48,133 nucleotides of DNA from a virus (IMGVR_UViG_3300043399_000060:1-48133); one strand, 5' to 3'; shown: positions 20,120 to 48,133, counted from the stretch's first letter. Made by a program: numbers and translations. Notes: a model not told the origin generated them from the letters alone.

Positions 20120-20760
20120 TATTTTAAAAAGTCTTCAAGAGATGGCTGATCCATCAGTGCATCTCGTAGCCATGCTTTACCAACTATATCAATAGCAGCT
20201 TGAGTCTTTGCTTTCTTTTTGTCACCCCAAGTATAAGACTCTAGACCTTCGCGACGGAATTGTTCACGAGCCTTTTGTGGGGGTAAGGCTTGTAGTGGAT
20301 TTACGATGGCGTTGTCTCTGTAAGCAATTTGCTCGTCACGTGTAGCGAATAGTGGTTGGTCACTGCGGAGTGAACCTGTTGGATCAACTGCCCAGAAGAC
20401 CAAACCATTGCGTATGTGCCAGCTGACAGAGGTTGGTGTGCAAGAGATTTTAAGTCGTTGGACTTTTCGTTCTTCAACTGCATATTTGATCCAAGAGTCC
20501 CAGCACTTTGACGCATATCCTTTTCCTTCTTTACCTTCAACTGTAACGATTTCATACAGGTTTGCATAGCCATCTCGATTGAATGTGGCAAAGATTAAAG
20601 AGACAACTTCACCGTTGTCTTCGAATGCCATTGGCAGATTCTTTTCATAATTATGAAAGCGAGTCCATAATGAATGTGCAGCCGATAAGAACTTGGTGTT
20701 CTTACCAGCTGGACTTGAATCAATAATTTGTTGAACTTTAGTTGAGTTAATGAATATCAT
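20119..20760 (-). CDS. GNAT-family acetyltransferase (213 aa)
   Basis: A 213-aa protein with a GNAT fold: the acetyl-CoA pyrophosphate-binding motif A is E-G-K-E-G-K-G-Y-A around residues 75-83, preceded by a Y-E-I-V-T-V strand. In hypermodified phage DNA systems GNATs acetylate amino-acid adducts on the base. After the GNAT core there is a C-terminal extension of about 80 residues ending P-S-L-E-D-F-L-K, which resembles the gp43 C-terminal clamp-binding peptide. It overlaps the amidotransferase gene by 14 bases. Confidence 0.75.
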   Translation of the reverse strand: MIFINSTKVQQIIDSSPAGKNTKFLSAAHSLWTRFHNYEKNLPMAFEDNGEVVSLIFATFNRDGYANLYEIVTVEGKEGKGYASKCWDSWIKYAVEERKVQRLKISCTPTSVSWHIRNGLVFWAVDPTGSLRSDQPLFATRDEQIAYRDNAIVNPLQALPPQKAREQFRREGLESYTWGDKKKAKTQAAIDIVGKAWLRDALMDQPSLEDFLK

Positions 20761-21457
20761 GTTGATAATCTACAGCGCTTTTAATAGAGACTGCGCTCAA
20801 TTCCATTTTCAAGTCGCCATCAAGTTTAATGTATGTATTCATTGGAACTTCCATAGTTGGAAGAAACAATCCAGCACGTTGCGGAATATCGGCAGTAGAA
20901 GTAATTATACTACCATTAGTCATTGTAGTCAAATATAATGGTCGTTTGCCATTACGGTAAACAGTTACCTCTTTGGTAGATGCAATAAGTTGGCAAACAG
21001 CCATGGACATATTACTGAACTCTTCTAGTGGACTTTTTGCGTGTAGCACCAATTCACTGTCGTTCTTTGTTTCAGTTTTATAACCGTACAACTCTTGCCA
21101 CTTTTCTGGCAGTTCTTGGGTAATAACACCATTGTGAACAATAGCAACATTATCGTTACCCAACGGTTGATTATATTCCAAGTCGCTAGTTGAATAACGG
21201 CAGTGTCCAATCATATACAAGTTTCCATCTTCATTCAAGAATGATTTGAAGTTGTCATTGTGCATATGTTTCTCAACGAATTGATCAGCTGGGATCGCTT
21301 CTTTGATTGTAACAAGGTTACCTTTATTCCAAGCAGGAATAAAAGAAATACCAGTGGCGTGCAAACCACGAATCTTTGATTCAACGAATACACGCTTTAA
21401 GGATTCAAAATCCTTCAGAGAAGGATTCTGTATAACTGCTCCGATAACGGCACACAT
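20747..21457 (-). CDS. Stand-alone class II glutamine amidotransferase (Ntn hydrolase)
   Basis: A 236-aa class II glutamine amidotransferase (PurF/AsnB/GlmS glutaminase type) with no synthetase domain. Cys2 directly after Met1 is the catalytic N-terminal nucleophile; H-C-R-Y-S-T near residues 80-85, H-N-G (about 108-110) and N-D-S-E (near 135) are the glutamine-binding residues. It releases ammonia from glutamine for transfer to a partner. Its place between the GNAT and the TET/JBP-like gene, with overlaps on both sides, suggests it amidates an intermediate on DNA, but no ATP-dependent amide-forming domain is seen in the cassette. Confidence 0.85.
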   Translation of the reverse strand: MCAVIGAVIQNPSLKDFESLKRVFVESKIRGLHATGISFIPAWNKGNLVTIKEAIPADQFVEKHMHNDNFKSFLNEDGNLYMIGHCRYSTSDLEYNQPLGNDNVAIVHNGVITQELPEKWQELYGYKTETKNDSELVLHAKSPLEEFSNMSMAVCQLIASTKEVTVYRNGKRPLYLTTMTNGSIITSTADIPQRAGLFLPTMEVPMNTYIKLDGDLKMELSAVSIKSAVDYQHDIH

Positions 21458-22851
21458 TAGAAGAAACTTTCAAGTGAATTAGATTTATCTGACTCTGGGT
21501 GATACTTCAACAACACTTCTGCGCCAAGTTTTTTCTCGCAGTAGTCATACCACTCTTGACTTTCCCACATACCAGCAGAAACACCATTCCAAAGATGACG
21601 CTCAGAGCCGTCTTCGTTTCGGTGCCCTGCATGCTCTTTGTTCAAACGACGAGATTCAACAAACTCATAACGGCAGTCTTCATACTCTTTTGAACCAAGT
21701 TCAAGCATCTTTTCACGGAAATAACAAACCAGTGAAATACGTTCGGCTTCTTCATCCAACAATTCAATTGGAGTGTTACCGTGCATAACTTCGTGGTTGT
21801 TGATCAACAGCAAGTCGCCTGGACGTACATTGACAGCAACGCGATACTCTGGAGCAATTAGATAACCACCCTTGTAATTGCCGTTGTTAGAAAGAACCAA
21901 CAAGTTAGAAAGACCACTGTTCAAGTCACCTGCATCAAAGTGTGCTGCAGTACGGAATGTTTTGTTAACAGTGATTGTAGTGAATGGAGTTTCTGGAACC
22001 AAGAATTGTGGATCAAGTTTCTTGGCAGCTTCCATTTGATTACTGTAACGCCATGGCATCAACTCCTTAAAACCTTTGGCAAGAGTCTGTAGGAATGGGA
22101 ATGCCATCTCAAACTTCTCACGATTCTTTTCAGTATAAGAAGTTGCGCGACCGTAAGGGATACGTGGATAACGATCAAACCAACCAGCAATACCAGAGAA
22201 CACACCGTTGGCATAAGTTGTTTGACAAACATATTTCTGTACAACTCGCTTGGCTTCGGCGCGTTGTTCATCCAAACTCAATTTACGAGTACGCTCAACC
22301 CAATCATCGAAAGTGAAATTGTCCTTTTTAACAGCCTGAATACTCCAAACATTGTTCTTATTAGAAGGCTGTTCTTTCTTGTTGGCGTGTTGACGCTTTA
22401 GTTCTTCGATCGGGTCTTCACCAAAGATGTTGGCTTTGGGATTAGAAAAGTAATCAATCACATCGTACTCATACTCAGTGACCCACTCTCTGTTACCCAA
22501 CTTGTCTTTTCTTGGACCAGCTGCGATGCCACGGTTTTGAGTCTCAACAGCTGCTTCACGTAGACCAACATATGCAGCCAGCTGTTCTTCTTTTGAGAAG
22601 AAGTTCTTACGGAACTTAAATGCAATACGCATTTCATCCGTACCTTTAGGGCAGCTGGAGCAGTCTTTGTCTGTGTCGCAAGATGCTTGTTGAGCAATGT
22701 CGCAGTTCACTGGCATGTAAACGTCGGCATCATAATCAACTAGAATATCGTAATGTGATTCGTCTACAAACTGACCCAGAAGATGAGAACAGTCGTGCTT
22801 TTTATCAGCCACGATAATTTTAACATTTCTACCTTCATCTATTATACTCAT
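21457..22851 (-). CDS. TET/JBP-family 2OG-Fe(II) dioxygenase (464 aa), predicted DNA base hydroxylase
   Basis: The double-stranded beta-helix core spans about residues 285-385: iron ligands H304-x-D306 (A-A-H-F-D-A-G-D), distal His357 in M-H-G-N-T-P, and the 2-oxoglutarate arginine R371 in E-R-I-S-L-V-C-Y-F. The last two blocks closely mirror TET2 (L-H-A-T-T-P and R-I-S-L-V-F-Y) and JBP. Such enzymes hydroxylate the methyl group of thymine (JBP) or 5-methylcytosine (TET) in DNA. The N-terminus has a Cys cluster (C50, C58, C64, C67) that may bind zinc. The C-terminal peptide S-L-E-S-F-F resembles that of gp43. A strong ribosome site (AAGGAG) marks it as the first gene of the cassette, 11 bases after gp41. 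Confidence 0.85.
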   Translation of the reverse strand: MSIIDEGRNVKIIVADKKHDCSHLLGQFVDESHYDILVDYDADVYMPVNCDIAQQASCDTDKDCSSCPKGTDEMRIAFKFRKNFFSKEEQLAAYVGLREAAVETQNRGIAAGPRKDKLGNREWVTEYEYDVIDYFSNPKANIFGEDPIEELKRQHANKKEQPSNKNNVWSIQAVKKDNFTFDDWVERTRKLSLDEQRAEAKRVVQKYVCQTTYANGVFSGIAGWFDRYPRIPYGRATSYTEKNREKFEMAFPFLQTLAKGFKELMPWRYSNQMEAAKKLDPQFLVPETPFTTITVNKTFRTAAHFDAGDLNSGLSNLLVLSNNGNYKGGYLIAPEYRVAVNVRPGDLLLINNHEVMHGNTPIELLDEEAERISLVCYFREKMLELGSKEYEDCRYEFVESRRLNKEHAGHRNEDGSERHLWNGVSAGMWESQEWYDYCEKKLGAEVLLKYHPESDKSNSLESFF

Positions 22852-35629: not shown

Positions 35630-36583
35630 TCACTTAAATTTACAGTTAGCCATGATCTCAGTAAGAGCAGCCATGATATTCAATTCTTGATCAGCCACGA
35701 ACGCTGCCTTGTATTGATAGTCAGCCAAGATAAGAACCATCTGTGGAATGCTAGGCGGTTCCATGTAAGTAGTAGATGTATCATAAAACTGACGGAAAAG
35801 ACCAGTAATATCAGCATCTGAATTCTTGGCAACCCAAGAACGAACTTCAGTAAAGTTCTTTTCTTTCAAGAATCCAATCAGAGTCTTGTAAGACTCTTCT
35901 GACATATTGATAAGAATACCAGAATCAATCTTACCCGCCACAGAGTATTTCTGTAGTTCATTCAGGATTCGGCGATAGTCAGGAAAGTGTTTGGTAGTTA
36001 GCTCAGCAACAGACTTTGGATCAAACTCAATACCTTCTTGCTTCAAGATTTTAGTTGCGCGCTTAAAGAAAGTAGCAGCAATCTCTTGCTTGTCTTTGTT
36101 CTCAATCTTAAAATCTACGTTGGCGCAACGTGAGCGCAGTGGCTCAATGATTTTATTCTTGAAGTTACATGTAAAGATAAAGCGACAGTTAGCAGAGAAT
36201 TCTTCCATGAAAGAACGCAGTGCAGGTTGAACAGAATCTGATGTCATATAATCAGCTTCGTCAATAATAACAACCTTCTTGGCATCAGTCAAAGAAACAG
36301 TCGAAGCAAATGCCGTGATTGTAGTTCTAAGAGTATCAATCTTACGACCCTCATCAGAACCGTTGATCATCAGATACTCTGCACCAATTTCATTACACAA
36401 GGCTTTAGCCACAGTTGTCTTACCAACACCAGCTGTTCCAGAAAACAAAAAGTGTGGAAGTTCACCCTGAGCAATATATTCCCTGAATGTCTTTTTCAGA
36501 GACTCTGGTAGAACACAATCATCAATTTTCTGTGGGCGATACTTTTCAACCCACAGAAATTGTTCTTCACGGCTATCAATCAT
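35630..36583 (-). CDS. 44: Clamp loader ATPase subunit, T4 gp44-like
   Basis: A 317-aa AAA+ ATPase (T4 gp44 is 319 aa). Walker A G-T-A-G-V-G-K-T-T at residues 49-57, Walker B I-I-D-E-A-D near 107-112 and the S-R-C arginine-finger motif near 149-151 are present. It opens gp45 and loads it on primer-template DNA with gp62. Confidence 0.96.
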   Translation of the reverse strand: MIDSREEQFLWVEKYRPQKIDDCVLPESLKKTFREYIAQGELPHFLFSGTAGVGKTTVAKALCNEIGAEYLMINGSDEGRKIDTLRTTITAFASTVSLTDAKKVVIIDEADYMTSDSVQPALRSFMEEFSANCRFIFTCNFKNKIIEPLRSRCANVDFKIENKDKQEIAATFFKRATKILKQEGIEFDPKSVAELTTKHFPDYRRILNELQKYSVAGKIDSGILINMSEESYKTLIGFLKEKNFTEVRSWVAKNSDADITGLFRQFYDTSTTYMEPPSIPQMVLILADYQYKAAFVADQELNIMAALTEIMANCKFK

Positions 36584-36596
36584 TATAAAAACTCCA

Positions 36597-38072
36597 TCAT
36601 TTATTAAATTTCACGTAATAGTTGTTTTGTTCCAACAACACTTTGTGTTCGATGTAAATACCAGTCTCAACATTGCTTAGGTATTCTTGGTACTTTCGAA
36701 TCTGTTCATCAATTATACCTGAACCATATGAATCAATCAAGTCTTTTTTGATTGCTTCGCGGTCAAACATCTCAAGACCATTCATGACTTGAGCCCAATT
36801 TGGTGCATTGAACATATGATATTCATCAGAGAATGTATGCTGCGTTGGTAGAGATTTCTTGAATGTCTCCAAGTGTTGTTCTACAAAATCAGTCTTGGTC
36901 ATCATCGTTGGTAATGCACGCCAGAATGCAGTGTCATTACGTTTTGTCATATAATGCAATTGAACAAAATCAACAATATTGTCAAAACAAGATTCAAACT
37001 TCTTGTTGTACTCTTCTGCAACAGACCTGTCGTATTTCCATCTGTTGAGAGACCTTGCAATACCAAATGCTTGCAAAATCGAATTGCCAATACTAGAAGC
37101 CTCTAGTGGTTCTACAAATGAAGAAGATAAACCAACAGAAACACAATTATTGATCCAGCTGCGATCAACGCGACCAGCTTCAAATTTAATGTCTTTGGCG
37201 ATAACAACTTCTTCATCGTACACTGATTGGATTTCTTTATAAGCCCCATCAGAATCAATAAACTCATCACAGAACACATATCCGTTACCGTATCTACCTT
37301 GCGTTGAAATTCTCCAATTCCAACCAGAAGACAATGCTCTTGATAATGTATATGGCTTTAGATCACTAACATCGCTAGTTGGAAAAGCCAAAGCATGGTT
37401 CATTGGAAGATATTTCTTATATGAAACAAACTTAGCTCCAAGTTTACTGGAGATAACTCTCTTAAATCCACTGCTGTCAATAAACAAATCAGCATGATGC
37501 TTTTCACCATTCTCATCGAGTAGATAATCAACATCACCGTTTTCTTTTAAAGACACATCAACAACAGTAGTCTTTTTAAATGTGATTCCACGCTCTGAAC
37601 AAACATCATGTAAAAACGTATTGAGCTTGTTTGTGTTGAAGTGATATTGATTAACTGACTTTAATCCGCTGCCATAGTGAATAAGATTTGTATCAACAAT
37701 AACATCTTCAGTCTTGATATTAGATGCGATTAAAGATCTAACGAATGGAAGAGAGTGTGCATACTCGCCACTATATTCTGAGAAGAAAGGTTCAGCTAAA
37801 GAGTGAAAATAACTCTTGCCATCACCATTCCAATTCTCAAACTTAATACCTTTTTTAAGGGCAGCGTCAGTATTTCTAACCAATCGATGAATGTTAATGT
37901 CGCAGTATTCAACGAATGTTTTCCAGTGTTCTGTAGAACCTTCACCGACACCAATAATACCAACAGCATCAGACTCTAGAACCTGAATTTTATATGCAGG
38001 ATTAGTTCTCTGCAGGATGATGGCAGTCACCAATCCTGCAGTACCAGCACCAAGGATGGTTATACTTTTCAT
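36597..38072 (-). CDS. Flavin-dependent halogenase (tryptophan halogenase family)
   Basis: A complete 491-aa flavin-dependent halogenase: FAD-binding G-A-G-T-A-G at residues 8-13, G-V-G-E-G-S-T near 41-47, the candidate catalytic Lys73 in the L-K-K-G-I-K-F-E-N-W segment, and the G250-W-N-W-R-I-S halogenase signature with Ser in place of the usual Pro. The family makes HOCl/HOBr-type species at Lys to halogenate aromatics. The phage enzyme VirX1 of cyanophage Syn10 is related in kind. It lies between gp44 and gp45, in the replication operon, with one-base overlap to gp45. Substrate unknown. Confidence 0.88.
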   Translation of the reverse strand: MKSITILGAGTAGLVTAIILQRTNPAYKIQVLESDAVGIIGVGEGSTEHWKTFVEYCDINIHRLVRNTDAALKKGIKFENWNGDGKSYFHSLAEPFFSEYSGEYAHSLPFVRSLIASNIKTEDVIVDTNLIHYGSGLKSVNQYHFNTNKLNTFLHDVCSERGITFKKTTVVDVSLKENGDVDYLLDENGEKHHADLFIDSSGFKRVISSKLGAKFVSYKKYLPMNHALAFPTSDVSDLKPYTLSRALSSGWNWRISTQGRYGNGYVFCDEFIDSDGAYKEIQSVYDEEVVIAKDIKFEAGRVDRSWINNCVSVGLSSSFVEPLEASSIGNSILQAFGIARSLNRWKYDRSVAEEYNKKFESCFDNIVDFVQLHYMTKRNDTAFWRALPTMMTKTDFVEQHLETFKKSLPTQHTFSDEYHMFNAPNWAQVMNGLEMFDREAIKKDLIDSYGSGIIDEQIRKYQEYLSNVETGIYIEHKVLLEQNNYYVKFNK

Positions 38073-38728
38073 CAGAAGTCGAATGTAGAATCAGATTCAA
38101 CAGCAACGTAATACACTAGATCACCAGCAGACTTGAAACGAGAGATTTTCTTGCTGGAAATACTAACAGTATATTCGCCTGGAAGCATCTTAAGGTTTTC
38201 AACTTTCAAATTGACTTTGAAAGACTTGTCTGTGGATCCAACTGGCTCGCTGAAAGAGTTACCAGTTGCATTCTTTTTATCGCCAACTACAGCAGTAATA
38301 GTAGTACCGTCACCAACAATAGAAACGTCGGATGCACGAAGAACTGAAGCAGTCTTGTGAATCATGTTCAACATGGCAGCAGTCATTGTGAACTCGATGT
38401 CAGCATTCGGGAATGTGATAGACTTTTGCGGAGCAGTCAAGACAGTTGCATCAGCTGCAAAGTATTTGATGCTCATGTTACCTTGCTTGATAGTGACATA
38501 CTTTGCATCAAAGTCCAATTCAGGATCTTCGAACAATGACATGGCACCAAGGAATTCGTTCAGATCGTAGATACCAAAGTCTGGGAATGTCTCAGAAACA
38601 ACAGCGTCTGCCATCACGTTCTTTTGAGCAGAGATTGTTGCCAGTTTATTACCTTGCTTCAACAGAAGGTTTCCATTGATGCCTGCAAAGTTCTTAAACA
38701 GGGCAAGGGTTTCTTTTGATAGTTTCAT
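38072..38728 (-). CDS. 45: Sliding clamp, T4 gp45-like
   Basis: A 218-aa clamp (T4 gp45 is 228 aa) with two repeated beta-alpha-beta halves. It forms a trimeric ring that tethers gp43 and, in late transcription, gp33/gp55 to DNA. The first gene after promoter 38761-38789, starting an operon gp45-halogenase-gp44-gp62-RegA. In this phage it could also be a platform for the modification enzymes whose C-termini resemble that of gp43. Confidence 0.93.
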   Translation of the reverse strand: MKLSKETLALFKNFAGINGNLLLKQGNKLATISAQKNVMADAVVSETFPDFGIYDLNEFLGAMSLFEDPELDFDAKYVTIKQGNMSIKYFAADATVLTAPQKSITFPNADIEFTMTAAMLNMIHKTASVLRASDVSIVGDGTTITAVVGDKKNATGNSFSEPVGSTDKSFKVNLKVENLKMLPGEYTVSISSKKISRFKSAGDLVYYVAVESDSTFDF

Positions 38729-39910: not shown

Positions 39911-40444
39911 TTACCAATCAGAACTTGGACCAGAGTCAGAACTTGATGAGTAAGAACTCGATGAATCAGAACTTGAACTCCAAGATGATTTTGGGCTAGA
40001 TGTATCAGAATCGCCCCAGCCATATGATGATTCGTTTGTTTTGACACTAACAGATCCAGTGTCTTCATTTTTAGTAACAACACCAGAAATACTATCAGTA
40101 TTAGAATGCATCAAGGTATTGATAACAGCTGCAGTCATCATACCATCCATAAAACCATCATCGTGAGATTTAACAGATTGTGTTGGTGATGGAGCATAAG
40201 AAACAGTTGTTTCTTTTCCACGAGGTGGAACAGCGCGAGTATTAACTGCAGCTGCAGCCTTCATTTTAGCTTGAAAGTTTTTACGAGACTGACGAGCAAT
40301 TTCGATTTCTCGAAGACGCTCTTGCTCAGCTTGTTCTTCTTTAAACTTTTTACGTCGTTGATTGATTCGGAGTTGAGCACGAATCGCCAGAATGGCTAAA
40401 GCCACCCCAGCAATCGCCACAGCAATTACTAGGATGTCGTCCAT
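39911..40444 (-). CDS. Membrane-anchored Ser-rich protein (177 aa)
   Basis: An N-terminal hydrophobic segment (residues 4-23), a basic-acidic helical region of about 50 residues, a middle G-F-M-D-G-M-M-T-A-A-V-I-N-T segment, and a final 30 residues almost all Ser with Asp, Trp and Tyr. Low-complexity tail and single anchor suggest a membrane protein, with C-terminus cytoplasmic or periplasmic undecided. Overlaps the SPFH gene stop by one base. Function unknown. Confidence 0.55.
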   Translation of the reverse strand: MDDILVIAVAIAGVALAILAIRAQLRINQRRKKFKEEQAEQERLREIEIARQSRKNFQAKMKAAAAVNTRAVPPRGKETTVSYAPSPTQSVKSHDDGFMDGMMTAAVINTLMHSNTDSISGVVTKNEDTGSVSVKTNESSYGWGDSDTSSPKSSWSSSSDSSSSYSSSSDSGPSSDW

Positions 40445-41241
40445 TATTTACCTACAACAACTTGACCACGGAAGTCGAATGGAATAACAACAGTGTTTAC
40501 TTTACCGTTCTTAATACCTTCGGCGATATCAGCTTGAGCCTTTGCTTGCATATAAGCAATTGACTGAGCACCTTGATTAGCCAATGCTTGCATACGACGA
40601 GCCTCAGCTTCAGCAGTCTTTACTTCAACTTCTTTTTGCTTGAATTCATTCTTTGAACGAACCAGCGCGTTGGCAGATTCAACAACGCTGTCAGCAGGCA
40701 CTACGTTACGCACAAGAACCTGAGTGATAGTAATGCTACCATCCAACTTTTCGTCAGTCAATGTCTTTTGAATTTGTTCTTTGATAGACAATTCCATTGC
40801 TTGACGAGCATCAGCCATTTCCAACGCTTCGTATTTACGCGCTTCTTTGTAGATAGCATTACGTGCAGCATTGTGGATATAGTTAAACATCAAGTAAGTA
40901 TCGCCATCGTGTTTAACGTGGAATGCCTTTGACTTGGTATTATAAAGTTCAGCAACTTGAGACTGGTTCAAGCTGTAGATAACGATGGCATCAAAGTCTT
41001 TCATTGTGCTGTTATCTTTGGCAATTGGAGTCATGTCGTCCAATTTCACGTTAACATCTTTGACGGGGAATGTCAGAACATCACCAACCAAGACTTGATT
41101 GAAAGAACCTGGAAGCAATTCCTCATTCTTAACTTGCTTATCAAAACCAACTCGCAAACCAACTTCACCAGTTTCAATACGGGTGCAACCAGTCAGCAAG
41201 ACAGCGCCAGCCAAAATAGCCATAGAGACAAGACGTTTCAT
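40444..41241 (-). CDS. SPFH/prohibitin-domain lipoprotein
   Basis: A 265-aa protein with a lipoprotein signal (L-L-T-G-C, Cys19) and a prohibitin/SPFH-like domain over about residues 22-200, followed by a coiled coil rich in Ala/Glu (F-K-Q-K-E-V-E-V-K-T-A-E-A-E-A-R). SPFH proteins scaffold membrane microdomains and proteases, as HflC/HflK do. A phage version is known in some T4-like phages but its role is unknown. Two small membrane ORFs precede it and a Ser-rich membrane protein follows. Confidence 0.75.
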   Translation of the reverse strand: MKRLVSMAILAGAVLLTGCTRIETGEVGLRVGFDKQVKNEELLPGSFNQVLVGDVLTFPVKDVNVKLDDMTPIAKDNSTMKDFDAIVIYSLNQSQVAELYNTKSKAFHVKHDGDTYLMFNYIHNAARNAIYKEARKYEALEMADARQAMELSIKEQIQKTLTDEKLDGSITITQVLVRNVVPADSVVESANALVRSKNEFKQKEVEVKTAEAEARRMQALANQGAQSIAYMQAKAQADIAEGIKNGKVNTVVIPFDFRGQVVVGK

Positions 41242-43144: not shown

Positions 43145-44269
43145 TTAGAAGGGGATTTCCTCTTCATAAGGCTGGGGAACTACTTTTTGGGGCTTGACAG
43201 GCTCTGGTTCAGGAGAAGCCACTTTGTCGTACAAGTCGATAAATGCAGTCCTAGTCGAAGCATCAAAACGATTGCAGCACAGCTGTACGGCTTTTTCGCG
43301 ATTCTTAAAGATTGCAAAGGCTCGAACAATGTGAATCATACGACGAGTTGTAATAGTCTCATCGCAACCACCATCAGCAAAAGTTCTACGAATAGCTTCA
43401 GCCCACTTGACTAGAGTTTCAGCAAATTCTTCATCAACACAAGAGTATGTATCCATCAGATTTTTAATAATCTTAACTTCAATCTTTGCGTTGGGATAGT
43501 CTTGATCAAAGGTAACAGCAAAACGCTCAAGGAACGCTTCGTTCAGAATGTTAGTACCAATGTAACGACCATCATCACTGCCTTTACCTTTTGTGTTGGC
43601 AGTGGCGATAATGTTAAATCCCTGAGCAGGAACAATCATCTCATTTTTAAGTTTGAAGTAGTATGGCTTGCCTTCAAGAATAGGCTGCAAGCACAACAGG
43701 GTGTTAGCAGCGCCAGCATCAATTTCATCCAACAGCAGAGTACAACCTGTGCGCATGGCGATTAACACTGGACCTTCGACAATTTCAACATTACCTTCTT
43801 GAAGAGTCTTGGAACCAATAAGTTGTTCTTCGTCAGTCATCATGTTAAGGTTAACACGAATCAATGGCTTTTTATGCTTGGCACAGATTTGTTCAACCAT
43901 TGTTGACTTACCATTACCAGTTGGACCAGAGATATAAGTTGGGTAGAAGATACCTTCTTTGATAATAGACTCAATATCTGAGTAGTTACCAAATGGTACA
44001 AAGTTAGGATCTTTAACAGGAATCAAAGAATTGGATTCTTGAACAACTTCTTTCGTTGGGGTTTGAGCAGCTTGTTTCTTGGCAACAGAATATGAGCCAC
44101 GACCAACTTTTTCAGTCATGAGCCAAACAGGATACTTGCTAGTGCCAAGATCACTCATAACTTCCAACAGTTGCTGTCTGGTAACAACACCATCTACAGA
44201 AACTGCAGGGAACATCTCATACATTCGGTTCTCAAAAGAACTACGAAACTCAGAATCAATTTTAGCCAT
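43145..44269 (-). CDS. cobS: CobS/MoxR-like AAA+ ATPase
   Basis: A 374-aa AAA+ ATPase of the CobS type frequent in aquatic T4-like phages. Walker A G-P-T-G-N-G-K-S-T at residues 115-123, Walker B L-L-L-D-E-I-D at 178-184 and a sensor region I-A-T-A-N-T-K-G are visible. Cellular CobS works with VWA protein CobT in cobaltochelatase; here the partner with a VWA domain is encoded immediately upstream (44321-46555) and no chelatase subunit is seen, so a MoxR-VWA chaperone/remodelling role is more likely than B12 synthesis. Confidence 0.88.
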   Translation of the reverse strand: MAKIDSEFRSSFENRMYEMFPAVSVDGVVTRQQLLEVMSDLGTSKYPVWLMTEKVGRGSYSVAKKQAAQTPTKEVVQESNSLIPVKDPNFVPFGNYSDIESIIKEGIFYPTYISGPTGNGKSTMVEQICAKHKKPLIRVNLNMMTDEEQLIGSKTLQEGNVEIVEGPVLIAMRTGCTLLLDEIDAGAANTLLCLQPILEGKPYYFKLKNEMIVPAQGFNIIATANTKGKGSDDGRYIGTNILNEAFLERFAVTFDQDYPNAKIEVKIIKNLMDTYSCVDEEFAETLVKWAEAIRRTFADGGCDETITTRRMIHIVRAFAIFKNREKAVQLCCNRFDASTRTAFIDLYDKVASPEPEPVKPQKVVPQPYEEEIPF

Positions 44270-44295
44270 AATAAATCACTCCATTCACTAACATA

Positions 44296-44324
44296 ATTAT
44301 ACTGTAGTTATTGTTGCAAGTCAA
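44296..44324 (-). promoter_or_regulatory. Sigma70-like promoter of cobS
   Basis: Minus strand TTGACT (44324-44319), 17-base spacer, TATAAT (44301-44296), 27 bases before the CobS start. The -35 box overlaps the last codons of the upstream VWA gene. Confidence 0.8.
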
Positions 44325-46555
44325 GCAACATATCCAATGAATCGGTTCAACAAGACACGACTTGTTTTCTTGACATTTAGATAATTACTAAACTTTCTAG
44401 AGATAGCAGAAGCACTCATATTTGAAGTGGCTTCAAGTTCACCGTCATCAATCTTAGTTGAAGATTGTGGAATCAAGAACAAGTCATCTCTGCCAGTGCC
44501 ACTAATAGAAGCAAAACCATCATTCTTAAAATCTTTTCTCCAGTCTTCAATCAACGCTTCGTAGTCGCCCCTGAAGTCTGGAATGTTACAACGAATAACA
44601 CTTCTAAGGTCTCGCAGTGAGTTCTTGGAAATATAAAAACCAACAACTGTAACACCGTAACGATCTTTAATCATACGAAGGATGACTTCGGTTTGCTTGG
44701 AAGAATCTGAACTAAACTCATAAGTCTTTTGTGTTTGTTCATCACGGATAAAATGCTTTTGTGTTATTCTCTTATACTGACCATTGATATACTCATTCGA
44801 GTAAGAGTGTAAACCTGCACGAGAACCAACATATGGACCAATAGAACCACCTTCACCATCGGTCAGTGTGATGAAAGTCATCTTTTCAATATTGTTGTTC
44901 TTGATGTAAGTGCCAAGGTTGTTGTAAACCCAAACAAGAGCCTGATTCAATGGAGTTGCGCCAAGGTCATAACCTTCATTCAAAAAGAATTTTGGATCAA
45001 GTGTGCGTTTAGCCATAGTGTTAAATTCACTGGATGTCATTTTATCAGAGAACAATTCCAGCAACCTAAAGTTATCATTGGTCTTTAGAGTATCTCTGTC
45101 CTTGCTAACAGATGGAGATGGAGATTTATATCCATAACGATCTATTGTCTTCAAGTGATATTGAGATGTGAAAGCCAAAACTCGGTATGGAATCTGAACC
45201 TTTGAACAGAACATAGCCAAGTTAATAACTTGTTGTAGTGTTTCTGTGATAACATTAGACATGGAACCAGACCAGTCCAACAAGAAAATCATACCATGAT
45301 TTTTACCAGTGGGCAACACAGTCACACGTTTGAACAAGTCATCATTTAGTTTATACGACCAGATTTTACGCATGTCCAACGAACCAACTTTAGAAGTTTG
45401 TGCACGCTTGTACATCTGAGCAGACTTACGCATATCAAATTCTTTGACAAGGTAATTCACAGTGCGCACAGATTCACTTTTGAATTTCTCAAAGTCTGCA
45501 TCAATTTCCTTTTGACGTGTGACCATCTGTTGATACCAACTATTACGGTATGGCATATCGTCAATAGTCCAAGTCTTTTTAATCTCGTTCAATATAGTCT
45601 TGTAAGAGATAACAGGATCTTCTTGGTAATGTGTATCGTATTTCCAGTAGAAATAATGAGTGCTGTCATCAGCCAAACTTTCCAGTTGCTGACTAAATGC
45701 CTTGTCTGTTAGAGACTCAAGTTCATCTTCAGATGTATCTTGGTTTGCTTCAGCAGGGGTTTCAGTCTCTTCTTGTTCACCGCTTGGTTTACCATTTGGT
45801 TGTTGCTGATCGTCAGAGTCTTGCTCTGTGTCAGAGTCATCCGAATCATTAGAAGCAGGGGCTTCATCTTCTTGATCATCTTCTTCTTGATCTTCTGAAT
45901 AACCAAATGTCTGGCTTGGATCATCTTGGTCATCTTCTTCTTCTTGATCTTCAGGAATAGATGACTTAGAAGAGTTTTGCTGGCGCTGTTCTTTTTGTTG
46001 CTTGATCTGATCTTTTGAAAACTCATAAATTTCATGAGCCAGTTCAATGACTTCTTCAACAGTCTCACATCGTTCAGCACGATCTACGAACTCACGCTCA
46101 ATAGAATTGAACTTAACACCACAATCAAAACCAGCTTTGTAGTACATGTTGATTTTGTCAATCAACAAAAGTTTGTCAAATGATTGGACTTGTTTAACCT
46201 TAAAAAAGTCACGATCGTTAAGTTGTTTGTAACCAGCACTCATGCGTTTACGCAGACCTGGATACTTACGTTTGATTAGTTTTTCAATGCGCACGTCCTC
46301 CAGCACATTAAGGTATGTCATAATGCGAGGATTCTTTTCGATGGGTTCGATGTACTTTTCGCCTGTGTAAAGAGCGTGACCAACTTCGTGAGCGATCAAC
46401 ATGTCTTCAATCTCTGGCGTCATGTCTTTCCAAAGTGGCAAAGTTAACACACGTGATCTGATATCAAAAGATGCAGTACGTGTTGTGGCGCGAACAACAG
46501 TTAGGTTTTCTGTTGCAAGAAGTTTAGCGGATAGGTCTGATGTTGCAGTGTGCAT
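44321..46555 (-). CDS. Metallopeptidase-VWA fusion protein (CobT-like, 744 aa)
   Basis: A 744-aa protein. Near the N-terminus H56-E-V-G-H60 is a zinc-peptidase HExxH motif, with N83-V-L-E86-D-V-R giving a probable third ligand. A very acidic linker (about residues 200-285) follows, then a C-terminal VWA domain with complete MIDAS D427-W-S429-G-S431 and a L-T-D near 580-590. CobT-type proteins also have an acidic linker and VWA, but the HExxH domain adds a peptidase. The ATG at 46555 has a GGAG site; the GTG at 46585 falls in the promoter -10 box. Pairs with CobS-like ATPase. Confidence 0.8.
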   Translation of the reverse strand: MHTATSDLSAKLLATENLTVVRATTRTASFDIRSRVLTLPLWKDMTPEIEDMLIAHEVGHALYTGEKYIEPIEKNPRIMTYLNVLEDVRIEKLIKRKYPGLRKRMSAGYKQLNDRDFFKVKQVQSFDKLLLIDKINMYYKAGFDCGVKFNSIEREFVDRAERCETVEEVIELAHEIYEFSKDQIKQQKEQRQQNSSKSSIPEDQEEEDDQDDPSQTFGYSEDQEEDDQEDEAPASNDSDDSDTEQDSDDQQQPNGKPSGEQEETETPAEANQDTSEDELESLTDKAFSQQLESLADDSTHYFYWKYDTHYQEDPVISYKTILNEIKKTWTIDDMPYRNSWYQQMVTRQKEIDADFEKFKSESVRTVNYLVKEFDMRKSAQMYKRAQTSKVGSLDMRKIWSYKLNDDLFKRVTVLPTGKNHGMIFLLDWSGSMSNVITETLQQVINLAMFCSKVQIPYRVLAFTSQYHLKTIDRYGYKSPSPSVSKDRDTLKTNDNFRLLELFSDKMTSSEFNTMAKRTLDPKFFLNEGYDLGATPLNQALVWVYNNLGTYIKNNNIEKMTFITLTDGEGGSIGPYVGSRAGLHSYSNEYINGQYKRITQKHFIRDEQTQKTYEFSSDSSKQTEVILRMIKDRYGVTVVGFYISKNSLRDLRSVIRCNIPDFRGDYEALIEDWRKDFKNDGFASISGTGRDDLFLIPQSSTKIDDGELEATSNMSASAISRKFSNYLNVKKTSRVLLNRFIGYVA

Positions 46556-46573: not shown

Positions 46574-46602
46574 ATTATACACCAAAACCGTATAAAAGAC
46601 AA
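46574..46602 (-). promoter_or_regulatory. Sigma70-like promoter of the metallopeptidase-VWA gene
   Basis: Minus strand TTGTCT (46602-46597), 17-base spacer, TATAAT (46579-46574) preceded by TG. The spacer begins TTTTAT as in the promoters at 32247 and 43055. Confidence 0.8.
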
Positions 46603-46639: not shown

Positions 46640-48133
46640 TTAGTTAGTTGCAATAACTGAAAAGTCGTTTCGTTTTTCAAACTTGATCACACTTCTAAAC
46701 TTATCGAACAACTGGTCGCCTTTGTGAGAGATAACAAAGACATTCGAGTGTTCTCCAAGAGTATTCATTAGATTCAAGAAGTAATCAGTACCAGCTGTGT
46801 CCAAACTTGAATCAAAAATCTCGTCTAATAGCAACAAGTTTGTGTTCACTGAGTTTTTCATCTTGGCGATCTGTCGCCATGTAAACAAGATTGATAAGTC
46901 GATACGCATCTTTTCACCTTCAGAGAAACTTGCATATGTAAACTCATCGCGGTGACGAGACTTGACAATCTCATTAAAGTTCTCATCAAGCTCAAAGTGG
47001 ATGTAAGCATCCATGGCATTCAGATACTTGTTAATCAACTTGTTCATAACTGGCAAGTATTCACGAATGATAGCAGTTTTGATACCAGTGTCTTTTAACA
47101 ACAAGTTTGCTACTTCTTCAAGGTTACGGTGTTCTTGTAGAGTAGTTTTCTGCTTGATCAATTCCATGGCAGCACTTGCCAATTCTTTCAGCTTACGCTT
47201 TTCTTCATCAACATTGGCTGTGTCCATAGTCGATTCTTCGACTTCAGCTTGAAGAGTCTTGTTCAATTTGTTCAACATAGAGATGTTGGCGTTCAGCGTT
47301 GAAAGTTTGATATTTAAATCAGTGATCTCTTTTAGAACAGTGTTCATGTCTGACAAGTCGTTATTCAACTTGGTAAAGATATCTTCTAAATCAGACAATC
47401 TCTTGTTCTCAAATTCAATCTTGGCGTTTAGTTCTTGAACAATGGTTTCTTTATGATCGTGCGGAATGCCTTGTGAGCAGGACGGGCATACGCTGTTCTC
47501 ATCAAAGAATTCGGCATGATGTTTGTGTTGCTCGACGATGGAAAGTAGTTTATTTTTAAACCCCTTTGCCTTTTCAATGTCACTATCAACCTTACTCTTG
47601 TTAGCAGTTTGTAGTTGGAGTGAGGTAATCTCAGCAAGTGTCTCAGCCACCGCTGTTTCGCTTCGCTGTATTTCTGAGTTATTAGCTTCGATCTTAGATA
47701 GTAGAGATCCAATAGCTTCTGACTTGGCGTTTGTAAGAGTTTTAATGAGTAACGATTGTCCATCAACCTTAGTCTTCGCAGTTGCAATCTCCCCTTCAAT
47801 CCTCTTGATAGTGTCACGTGTTTCATTGGCTTTTTCTTTCAACAACTGATTCATAGTCGAGAAGATACGAATATCAAGAATGTCTTCAATAACTTCTCGG
47901 CGTTGACTTGGAGACAACTGCATGAATGGAACAAATGAAGCTGAACCCAAGATAACAACCTGTGTGAAGGTTTTGTAGTTCAACTTTAAAATCTGTTGCT
48001 CAAGAACTTTTTGGTAGTCTTTGGCAGCAGCATCTTGGTTCATTAAAACACTATCAACCCAAATTTCAAATTTGTTGGGTTTGATACCACGAATAACTTT
48101 GTACTTCTTGGCACCAATACTGAATTGAACTTC
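46640..48133 (-). CDS. 46: Recombination endonuclease subunit, T4 gp46-like (5' end cut off)
   Basis: A Rad50/SbcC-type ATPase that runs in from the right window edge: the frame is open to base 48133, and an internal ATG at 48043 is not the true start. The upstream codons match the N-terminal gp46 domain after the Walker A loop. Visible: long coiled coils interrupted by a zinc hook C-P-S-C (near 47485), an S-F-S-E-G-E-K signature and a D-E-I-F Walker B near the C-terminus. With gp47 it resects DNA ends for recombination-dependent replication. A terminator follows. Confidence 0.93.
   Translation of the reverse strand, partial: EVQFSIGAKKYKVIRGIKPNKFEIWVDSVLMNQDAAAKDYQKVLEQQILKLNYKTFTQVVILGSASFVPFMQLSPSQRREVIEDILDIRIFSTMNQLLKEKANETRDTIKRIEGEIATAKTKVDGQSLLIKTLTNAKSEAIGSLLSKIEANNSEIQRSETAVAETLAEITSLQLQTANKSKVDSDIEKAKGFKNKLLSIVEQHKHHAEFFDENSVCPSCSQGIPHDHKETIVQELNAKIEFENKRLSDLEDIFTKLNNDLSDMNTVLKEITDLNIKLSTLNANISMLNKLNKTLQAEVEESTMDTANVDEEKRKLKELASAAMELIKQKTTLQEHRNLEEVANLLLKDTGIKTAIIREYLPVMNKLINKYLNAMDAYIHFELDENFNEIVKSRHRDEFTYASFSEGEKMRIDLSILFTWRQIAKMKNSVNTNLLLLDEIFDSSLDTAGTDYFLNLMNTLGEHSNVFVISHKGDQLFDKFRSVIKFEKRNDFSVIATN

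Follow-up and report, generated by a model that had tools for sequence, protein, structure and literature searches.

A CobST-like gene pair with an intact zincin site in the replication block of a T4-like phage, and its possible role as a remodeller-protease

The subject of this work is a pair of adjacent genes found in a stretch of viral DNA of 48,133 nucleotides (IMGVR_UViG_3300043399_000060:1-48133, the whole of which is denoted here as the window). Both genes lie on the minus strand, as do all the domains, motifs and replication genes for which coordinates are given below. The larger one (44321..46555) encodes a CobT-like protein of 744 residues that combines an HExxH motif with a VWA domain and matches the PHROG 459 'peptidase' profile (phrog_459, E 1e-190) from residue 10 to 744. 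The open reading frame (ORF) caller placed its start at a TTG codon at 46585, yielding 754 residues, but the ATG at 46555 is the better start because the relatives begin at the same place. Directly downstream, after a gap of 51 bases and on the same strand, lies a gene (43145..44269) for a CobS-like, MoxR-type AAA+ ATPase of 374 residues. This protein matches PHROG 249 (phrog_249, 'porphyrin biosynthesis', E 1.7e-102), the Pfam families AAA_5 and CbbQ_C (a CbbQ-type C-terminus) and, in a sequence search, the CobS protein in the PDB (E 4.5e-24). The VWA protein received no domain call from Pfam or NCBIfam, and a sequence search with it against the PDB returned only noise.

The architecture of the larger protein could be resolved from its sequence and from AlphaFold2 models. 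Residues 1–197 (45965..46555) form a predicted zincin-like domain, delimited by the model and by PDB fold matches, which contains the HEVGH motif (H56–H60, 46376..46390) and, further on, an NVLEDVRIE motif (residues 83–91, 46283..46309) whose E86, on the basis of its invariance and of the model, is the candidate third zinc ligand. It is followed by an acidic, low-complexity linker (about residues 198–274, 45734..45964), recognizable in the sequence and by a predicted local distance difference test score (pLDDT) below 50 across residues 198–274. The VWA domain spans approximately residues 418–700 (44456..45304), as deduced from the PDB fold matches of the full-length model, all of them VWA-containing proteins, including NorD in NorQD. 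Its metal ion-dependent adhesion site (MIDAS) is complete, with the DxSxS residues D427, S429 and S431 (D427–S431, 45263..45277), T534 (44954..44956) and D566 (44858..44860). In the AAA+ protein, Walker A corresponds to G115–K121 (43907..43927). The two reading frames, HEVGH at residues 56–60, E86, the acidic linker and the complete MIDAS VWA domain are thus all present where the original prediction, made from this DNA, had located them.

These motifs are strongly conserved. Among 84 relatives there is no variation at H56, E57, H60, N83, E86, D87, R89 or any of the five MIDAS residues, and the same zincin and MIDAS residues are also invariant in an alignment of 53 sequences with identities down to 30%. 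In a set of 17 very diverged members from phages, IncC and IncHI2 plasmids and elements resembling integrative and conjugative elements (ICE-like elements), whose N-terminal domains are otherwise little alike, HExxH is invariant, the position of E86 is occupied by Glu in 15 and by Asp in the other two, and the top conserved positions are essentially those of HExxH and NxxEDxRIE. Such invariance across relatives indicates that the motif is real and not a chance pattern. Likewise, Walker A (G115, G118, G120 and K121) is invariant in 24 CobS-like proteins, and Walker B (E182), sensor 1 (N225), the Arg finger (R249) and R309 of the AAA+ protein are invariant as well, the motif names being our own assignment.

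The search with the full-length model was swamped by VWA domains, and therefore the N-terminal part (residues 1–200) was modelled separately. The model (pLDDT 90.9, predicted template modelling score 0.85) contains a small set of strands and places HExxH in a helix spanning residues 47–63 and E86 in a later helix (76–97), so that, at the level of the backbone, the predicted fold does not set the HExxH residues apart. The top seven fold matches in the PDB all belong to the zincins (probability 0.89–0.99, E 0.1–0.25), the best ones being the minigluzincins jannalysin, abylysin and selecase, together with the plasmid zincin ArdC. When compared with predicted viral structures, the model matched phage proteins named CobT as well as proteins of the haloarchaeal viruses HHTV-2 and HCTV-2. 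M48 as the family of the N-terminus is not supported: no Pfam peptidase family matches the protein, and the folds that come closest are those of minigluzincins and of zincins of the ArdC/IrrE type. DUF2201 (PF13203), the bacterial HExxH-VWA family that was first suspected, was discarded together with Peptidase M48, since neither has a Pfam match in the window protein; DUF2201 is, in addition, nearly absent from 58 sampled genomes. The site appears intact, and its reading as that of a metallopeptidase is supported. That reading is already in print: a MoxR AAA+/vWA pair with an N-terminal metallopeptidase has been described in group 2.2 jumbo phages, where it was proposed to act in virion assembly with proteolysis (PMC7824862). 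The idea of a MoxR-VWA system with a peptidase is consequently a rediscovery. By its description, the jumbo phage pair shares with that of the window the same domain plan and the adjacent ATPase.

Alternatively, the zincin domain could be structural or serve only for auto-processing, with the AAA+/VWA remodeller as the working unit and a site that binds metal without cleaving others. Two members fit such a notion: in the CobT-like proteins of Stenotrophomonas phage ANB28 (L009 2658-4643) and of an Acinetobacter plasmid (L206 1415-3337), HExxH has given way to REVST and QEVAK, respectively, but the later E-x-A/V-R-x-E part is kept, and both elements still retain the pair; moreover, chromosomal CobT works without the site. 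However, the catalytic E57 is invariant elsewhere, as are the ligands, and we regard this explanation as improbable.

The pair is by no means restricted to the window. In a survey of 50,697 phage records, relatives of the VWA protein were detected in 463 and those of the CobS-like protein in 842. The counts for both proteins are equal in the records of Synechococcus (365), 'Cyanophage' (61) and Prochlorococcus (24), from which it follows that T4-like cyanophages carry the pair, and not CobS alone, as aquatic T4-like phages had initially been assumed to do often. Nor is the pairing unusual: it belongs to the core of cyanophages, where its members are annotated as 'peptidase' and as 'CobS' or 'porphyrin biosynthesis'. 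In the literature, cobS is counted among the core genes of cyanophages (PMC3037559), and almost every myo-cyanophage is described as having it, with roughly one copy in each genome (PMC9983427). In short, the pair is already known and occurs almost universally in the T4-like phages of the ocean. The cyanophage pair (PHROG 459 and 249) resembles that of the window in its full-length match, gene order and neighbourhood, with gp46, the pair and the clamp genes in succession, and differs only by sequence divergence (about 30–38% identity between the window and cyanophage members).

The gene order around the pair is remarkably fixed. Considering in IMG/VR only those loci with room for the given neighbour, the CobS gene lies directly downstream of the VWA gene in 72 of 72 window-like and 65 of 67 cyanophage-like loci, gp46 lies upstream of the pair in 58/58 and 48/50, respectively, and the gp45 and gp44 genes are present in all 50 window-like loci; wherever a window-like locus leaves room, the pair is flanked by gp46 on one side and by the gp45/gp44 clamp genes on the other. 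Scans of IMG/VR with the Stenotrophomonas and Ochrobactrum phage proteins gave no matches. In the window itself, the upstream neighbour (46640..48133) encodes an SbcC/gp46-like recombination endonuclease subunit (phrog_77, E 2.5e-132) that runs off the window, and downstream are found the genes for a gp45-like sliding clamp (38072..38728, phrog_223) and a gp44-like clamp loader (35630..36583, phrog_168). They are part of a T4-like replication block with the gp46-like SbcC, the pair, gp45, gp44, a further clamp-loader gene and UvsX, which also holds DNA polymerase, helicase, primase, DNA ligase and ribonucleotide reductase genes. Similar surroundings are found in phage DLP6, where the pair lies beside UvsX and a primase-helicase, and in phage OC, where it lies beside gp46/47-type endonuclease genes.

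Three other features of the window were observed in passing. A tryptophan-halogenase-like gene (36597-38072, Pfam 1e-98) adjoins the sliding clamp, and another gene (40444-41241, Pfam 8.5e-17) encodes an SPFH/Band-7 lipoprotein; among 50 related loci with room, the first was seen in 13 and the second in 14. At 20747-22851, a glutamine-amidotransferase-like gene lies beside one whose product weakly matches a queuine tRNA-ribosyltransferase (phrog_6059), and together they may form a cluster for DNA or tRNA base modification. CobS-like genes were also noticed in Staphylococcus and Listeria. They were left out as members of the same system because the search for a neighbouring HExxH-VWA gene was negative; in the Staphylococcus phage, the large gene close to the CobS-like one (L005 1033-3081) encodes a PcfJ-like protein, not an HExxH-VWA one.

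The pair also recurs beside SSB/Bet/Exo genes on plasmids and on an ICE-like element. The latter shows the order SSB-RecT-YqaJ-CobS-DUF3150-HExxH/VWA, and the same gene set is found on IncC plasmids. The HExxH copies derived from genomes adjoin SSB-RecT-YqaJ-CobS-DUF3150 and TraH, or DUF3150 and TraI, or DUF3150 with a CobS-like gene, or else a gene for a primase. Most members from phages and conjugative elements preserve HExxH, among them those of IncC, IncHI2 and ICE-like elements. On these three kinds of element, the HExxH-VWA gene has DUF3150 as a neighbour (L205 5170-6297, L208 2283-3731, L211 2516-3793 and L329 6006-6956), with CobS one to several genes away, and the DUF3150 product is a possible third component of the system.

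These locations bear on the role in virion assembly put forward for the jumbo phages, according to which the MoxR-vWA pair would assemble virion parts and the peptidase would process structural proteins (PMC7824862). There is a precedent, cited in the same work, in the MoxR-vWA system used for tail assembly by an archaeal virus. However, in the related loci with room the pair is fixed in the replication/recombination block and not in the structural block, and it is also carried by conjugative plasmids and by an ICE-like element, which make no virion. A function in virion assembly is therefore considered unlikely. That the pair is shared among phages, plasmids and ICE-like elements from a wide variety of hosts speaks for a counter-defence or host-takeover protease dismantling a host defence or nucleoid complex, in the way that the zincin ArdC acts against restriction, and the ArdC fold is indeed among the best matches. 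Against this, the VWA protein is matched by none of the PADLOC defence models, the CobS-like protein gives only weak ATPase overlaps, and a core gene of nearly all cyanomyoviruses (PMC9983427) resembles a basic function more than a patchy counter-defence one, so that we attach to this alternative a low probability too.

A different interpretation has been advanced for the haloarchaeal tailed viruses and cyanophages, in which the genes were described as viral cobST and the 'peptidase' label was deemed mistaken (PMC8651126). That description covers the cyanophage pair, and the window zincin model matches the HHTV-2 and HCTV-2 proteins by predicted fold, although the peptidase site, whose label is rejected there, is invariant here. 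This interpretation would have the phage CobST join a host CobN and raise the output of cobalamin, for instance for ribonucleotide reduction, HExxH being a relic. It finds support in the CobS-like sequence of the ATPase, with its PDB match and 84 bits against TIGR01650, in the relatives of the SSU5 type that match Pfam CobT and CobT_C, and in the fact that cyanobacteria do have a protein of the CobN/Mg-chelatase family (the Synechococcus elongatus control was positive). Yet the NCBIfam CobS equivalog TIGR01650 scores only 84.3 bits against a cut-off of 558.55, and the window VWA protein matches neither the NCBIfam CobT equivalog nor Pfam CobT or CobT_C. Neither the window nor any of 15 related phage records yielded a CobN match, and the same holds for the control genome of E. 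coli, which hosts members of the SSU5 and IncHI2 types. Within the 48 kb of the window, the search thus turned up no cobN-like gene of the kind that would contradict the earlier proposal, and the view of a MoxR-VWA pair whose zincin site is intact and which has no chelatase subunit nearby is supported. The zincin residues are, besides, invariant over very diverged members and not decaying, whereas the chromosomal CobT that serves CobN lacks them, and the window phage carries its own genes for the large and small subunits of a ribonucleotide reductase of the NrdA/NrdB kind. Such reductases need no B12. Most likely, then, the pair is not a chelatase, and a viral cobaltochelatase has little to recommend it.

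Chromosomal CobT was also examined in 299 genomes of unknown completeness, 84 of them from Pseudomonadota with a strong chromosomal CobT. In 20 of these 84 there was no match to the CobN family (PF02514), and the same is true of the Caulobacter vibrioides control, which has a chromosomal CobT. Chromosomal CobST may have a second role. The literature on B12 synthesis in SAR11 provided nothing usable.

How the window protein relates to CobT was clarified by the phage-plasmids of the SSU5 type. Their proteins contain HEVAH and NALEDVFIE, which align with HEVGH and NVLEDVRIE in the window, and match Pfam CobT (E 2e-37) and CobT_C (E 2.5e-112), unlike the window protein. The SSU5-type CobT/CobS pair is colinear with that of the window, and the profiles of both families align over their whole length (E 2e-8) as well as when only the N-terminal part is compared (E 1.6e-9, against 0.06 for the reversed control). 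On the other side, SSU5-type proteins align with chromosomal CobT at full length (E 1e-23), with HEVAH opposite SMALR and EDVFIE opposite EQARVEA, but the N-terminal parts alone reach only E 0.0034 (reversed 0.25). Full-length profiles of the window family and chromosomal CobT also compare well (E 4e-6); their N-terminal parts alone do not (E 0.35, not significant) and, because this direct comparison failed, the link between both N-terminal domains is kept as a transitive one via the SSU5 type. No CobT chain was present among the 50 PDB fold matches listed, from whose library recent CobT entries are possibly absent. Taken in this way, the HExxH domain appears to correspond to the N-terminal region of CobT and looks like the CobT N-terminal domain, not an added module, contrary to the initial view of a peptidase built in by fusion.

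As for the site itself, 78 of 80 Rhizobiales CobT proteins have no HExxH string within residues 1–250 (two were left uninspected), and none of 37 canonical chromosomal CobT proteins from other Pseudomonadota has HExxH at the aligned site; stray strings occur elsewhere in the ORF in one of those 37 (L307) and in a CobT-like protein (L328). On a CobS tree, which is unrooted and has long branches, the intact/lost label needs 2 changes, compared with a mean of 15.7 after shuffling, and the second loss is that of phage ANB28. The pair is, in evolutionary terms, CobST-like, with a CobT-like subunit that keeps a zincin site lacking in chromosomal CobT. The CobT N-terminal domain is likely a decayed zincin, a claim that we consider unproven because of the weak N-terminal comparisons. 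Extending it, one may tentatively imagine CobT as a decayed ATP-dependent metalloprotease, mobile elements keeping the ancestral type of intact CobST in their replication/recombination kit and chromosomal CobST, often without CobN, having a non-chelatase role too; we find this possible rather than probable. The novelty of this work lies in linking the two readings in print, the MoxR-vWA-metallopeptidase and the viral CobST, and in the evidence that cellular CobT is probably a form with a decayed peptidase site.

All these observations can be integrated in a model, to which we assign a probability of about 0.5, in which the pair is an ATP-driven remodeller with its own metallopeptidase that acts in phage DNA replication or recombination, and not a chelatase. 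It builds on the invariant motifs, the fold prediction, the strict pairing of the two genes, their context and the absence of CobN matches; the assembly of a ring, the docking, the proteolysis and the target are what we infer. In this model, the CobS-like AAA+ protein would form a MoxR-type hexameric ring, on which the VWA-peptidase would dock via the metal of its MIDAS, in the manner proposed for CobT on CobS and for NorD on NorQ. Hydrolysis of ATP would pull a target protein complex apart, and the zincin domain, on its flexible acidic tether, would cut the target or mature the machine itself, cleavage of a host or phage complex being plausible. The target would most likely be a protein, encoded by either the phage or its host, that sits on DNA undergoing replication or recombination, because the pair lies between gp46 and the clamp and clamp-loader genes in T4-like phages, and beside replication/recombination genes in several plasmids and ICE-like elements. 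Known systems provide parallels for the arrangement. The aerobic cobaltochelatase CobS/CobT (PDB 9ujv and 9uka) consists, as in the window, of an AAA+ protein plus a VWA partner with an acidic linker, but its CobT has no HExxH and works with CobN, and the chromosomal order is CobS and then CobT. NorQ/NorD and CbbQ/CbbO also combine an AAA+ ring with a VWA partner, and the VWA domain of NorD is among the fold matches of the window protein; we know of no zincin domain in these systems, and their substrates differ.

Several points weigh against the model. The E-values of the zincin fold matches, of about 0.1–0.25, are not significant alone, for which reason the assignment rests on motif, topology and rank. 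For none of the phage members was an experiment found that demonstrates proteolysis, zinc, the formation of a ring or an interaction, and the literature on the timing of expression of the cyanophage 'peptidase' yielded nothing usable. Finally, gene context indicates timing and operon, not substrate, and the window is a 48-kb fragment.

The pair is among the most widespread core genes of cyanophages, and cobS, one half of it, is commonly interpreted as a vitamin-B12 'auxiliary metabolic gene'. If the pair is instead a remodeller-protease of the replication block, many inferences on viral B12 metabolism in the ocean would fall, and the function of cyanophage cobS would become testable by means of single catalytic mutants. 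The N-terminal domain of CobT, in turn, would gain an origin.

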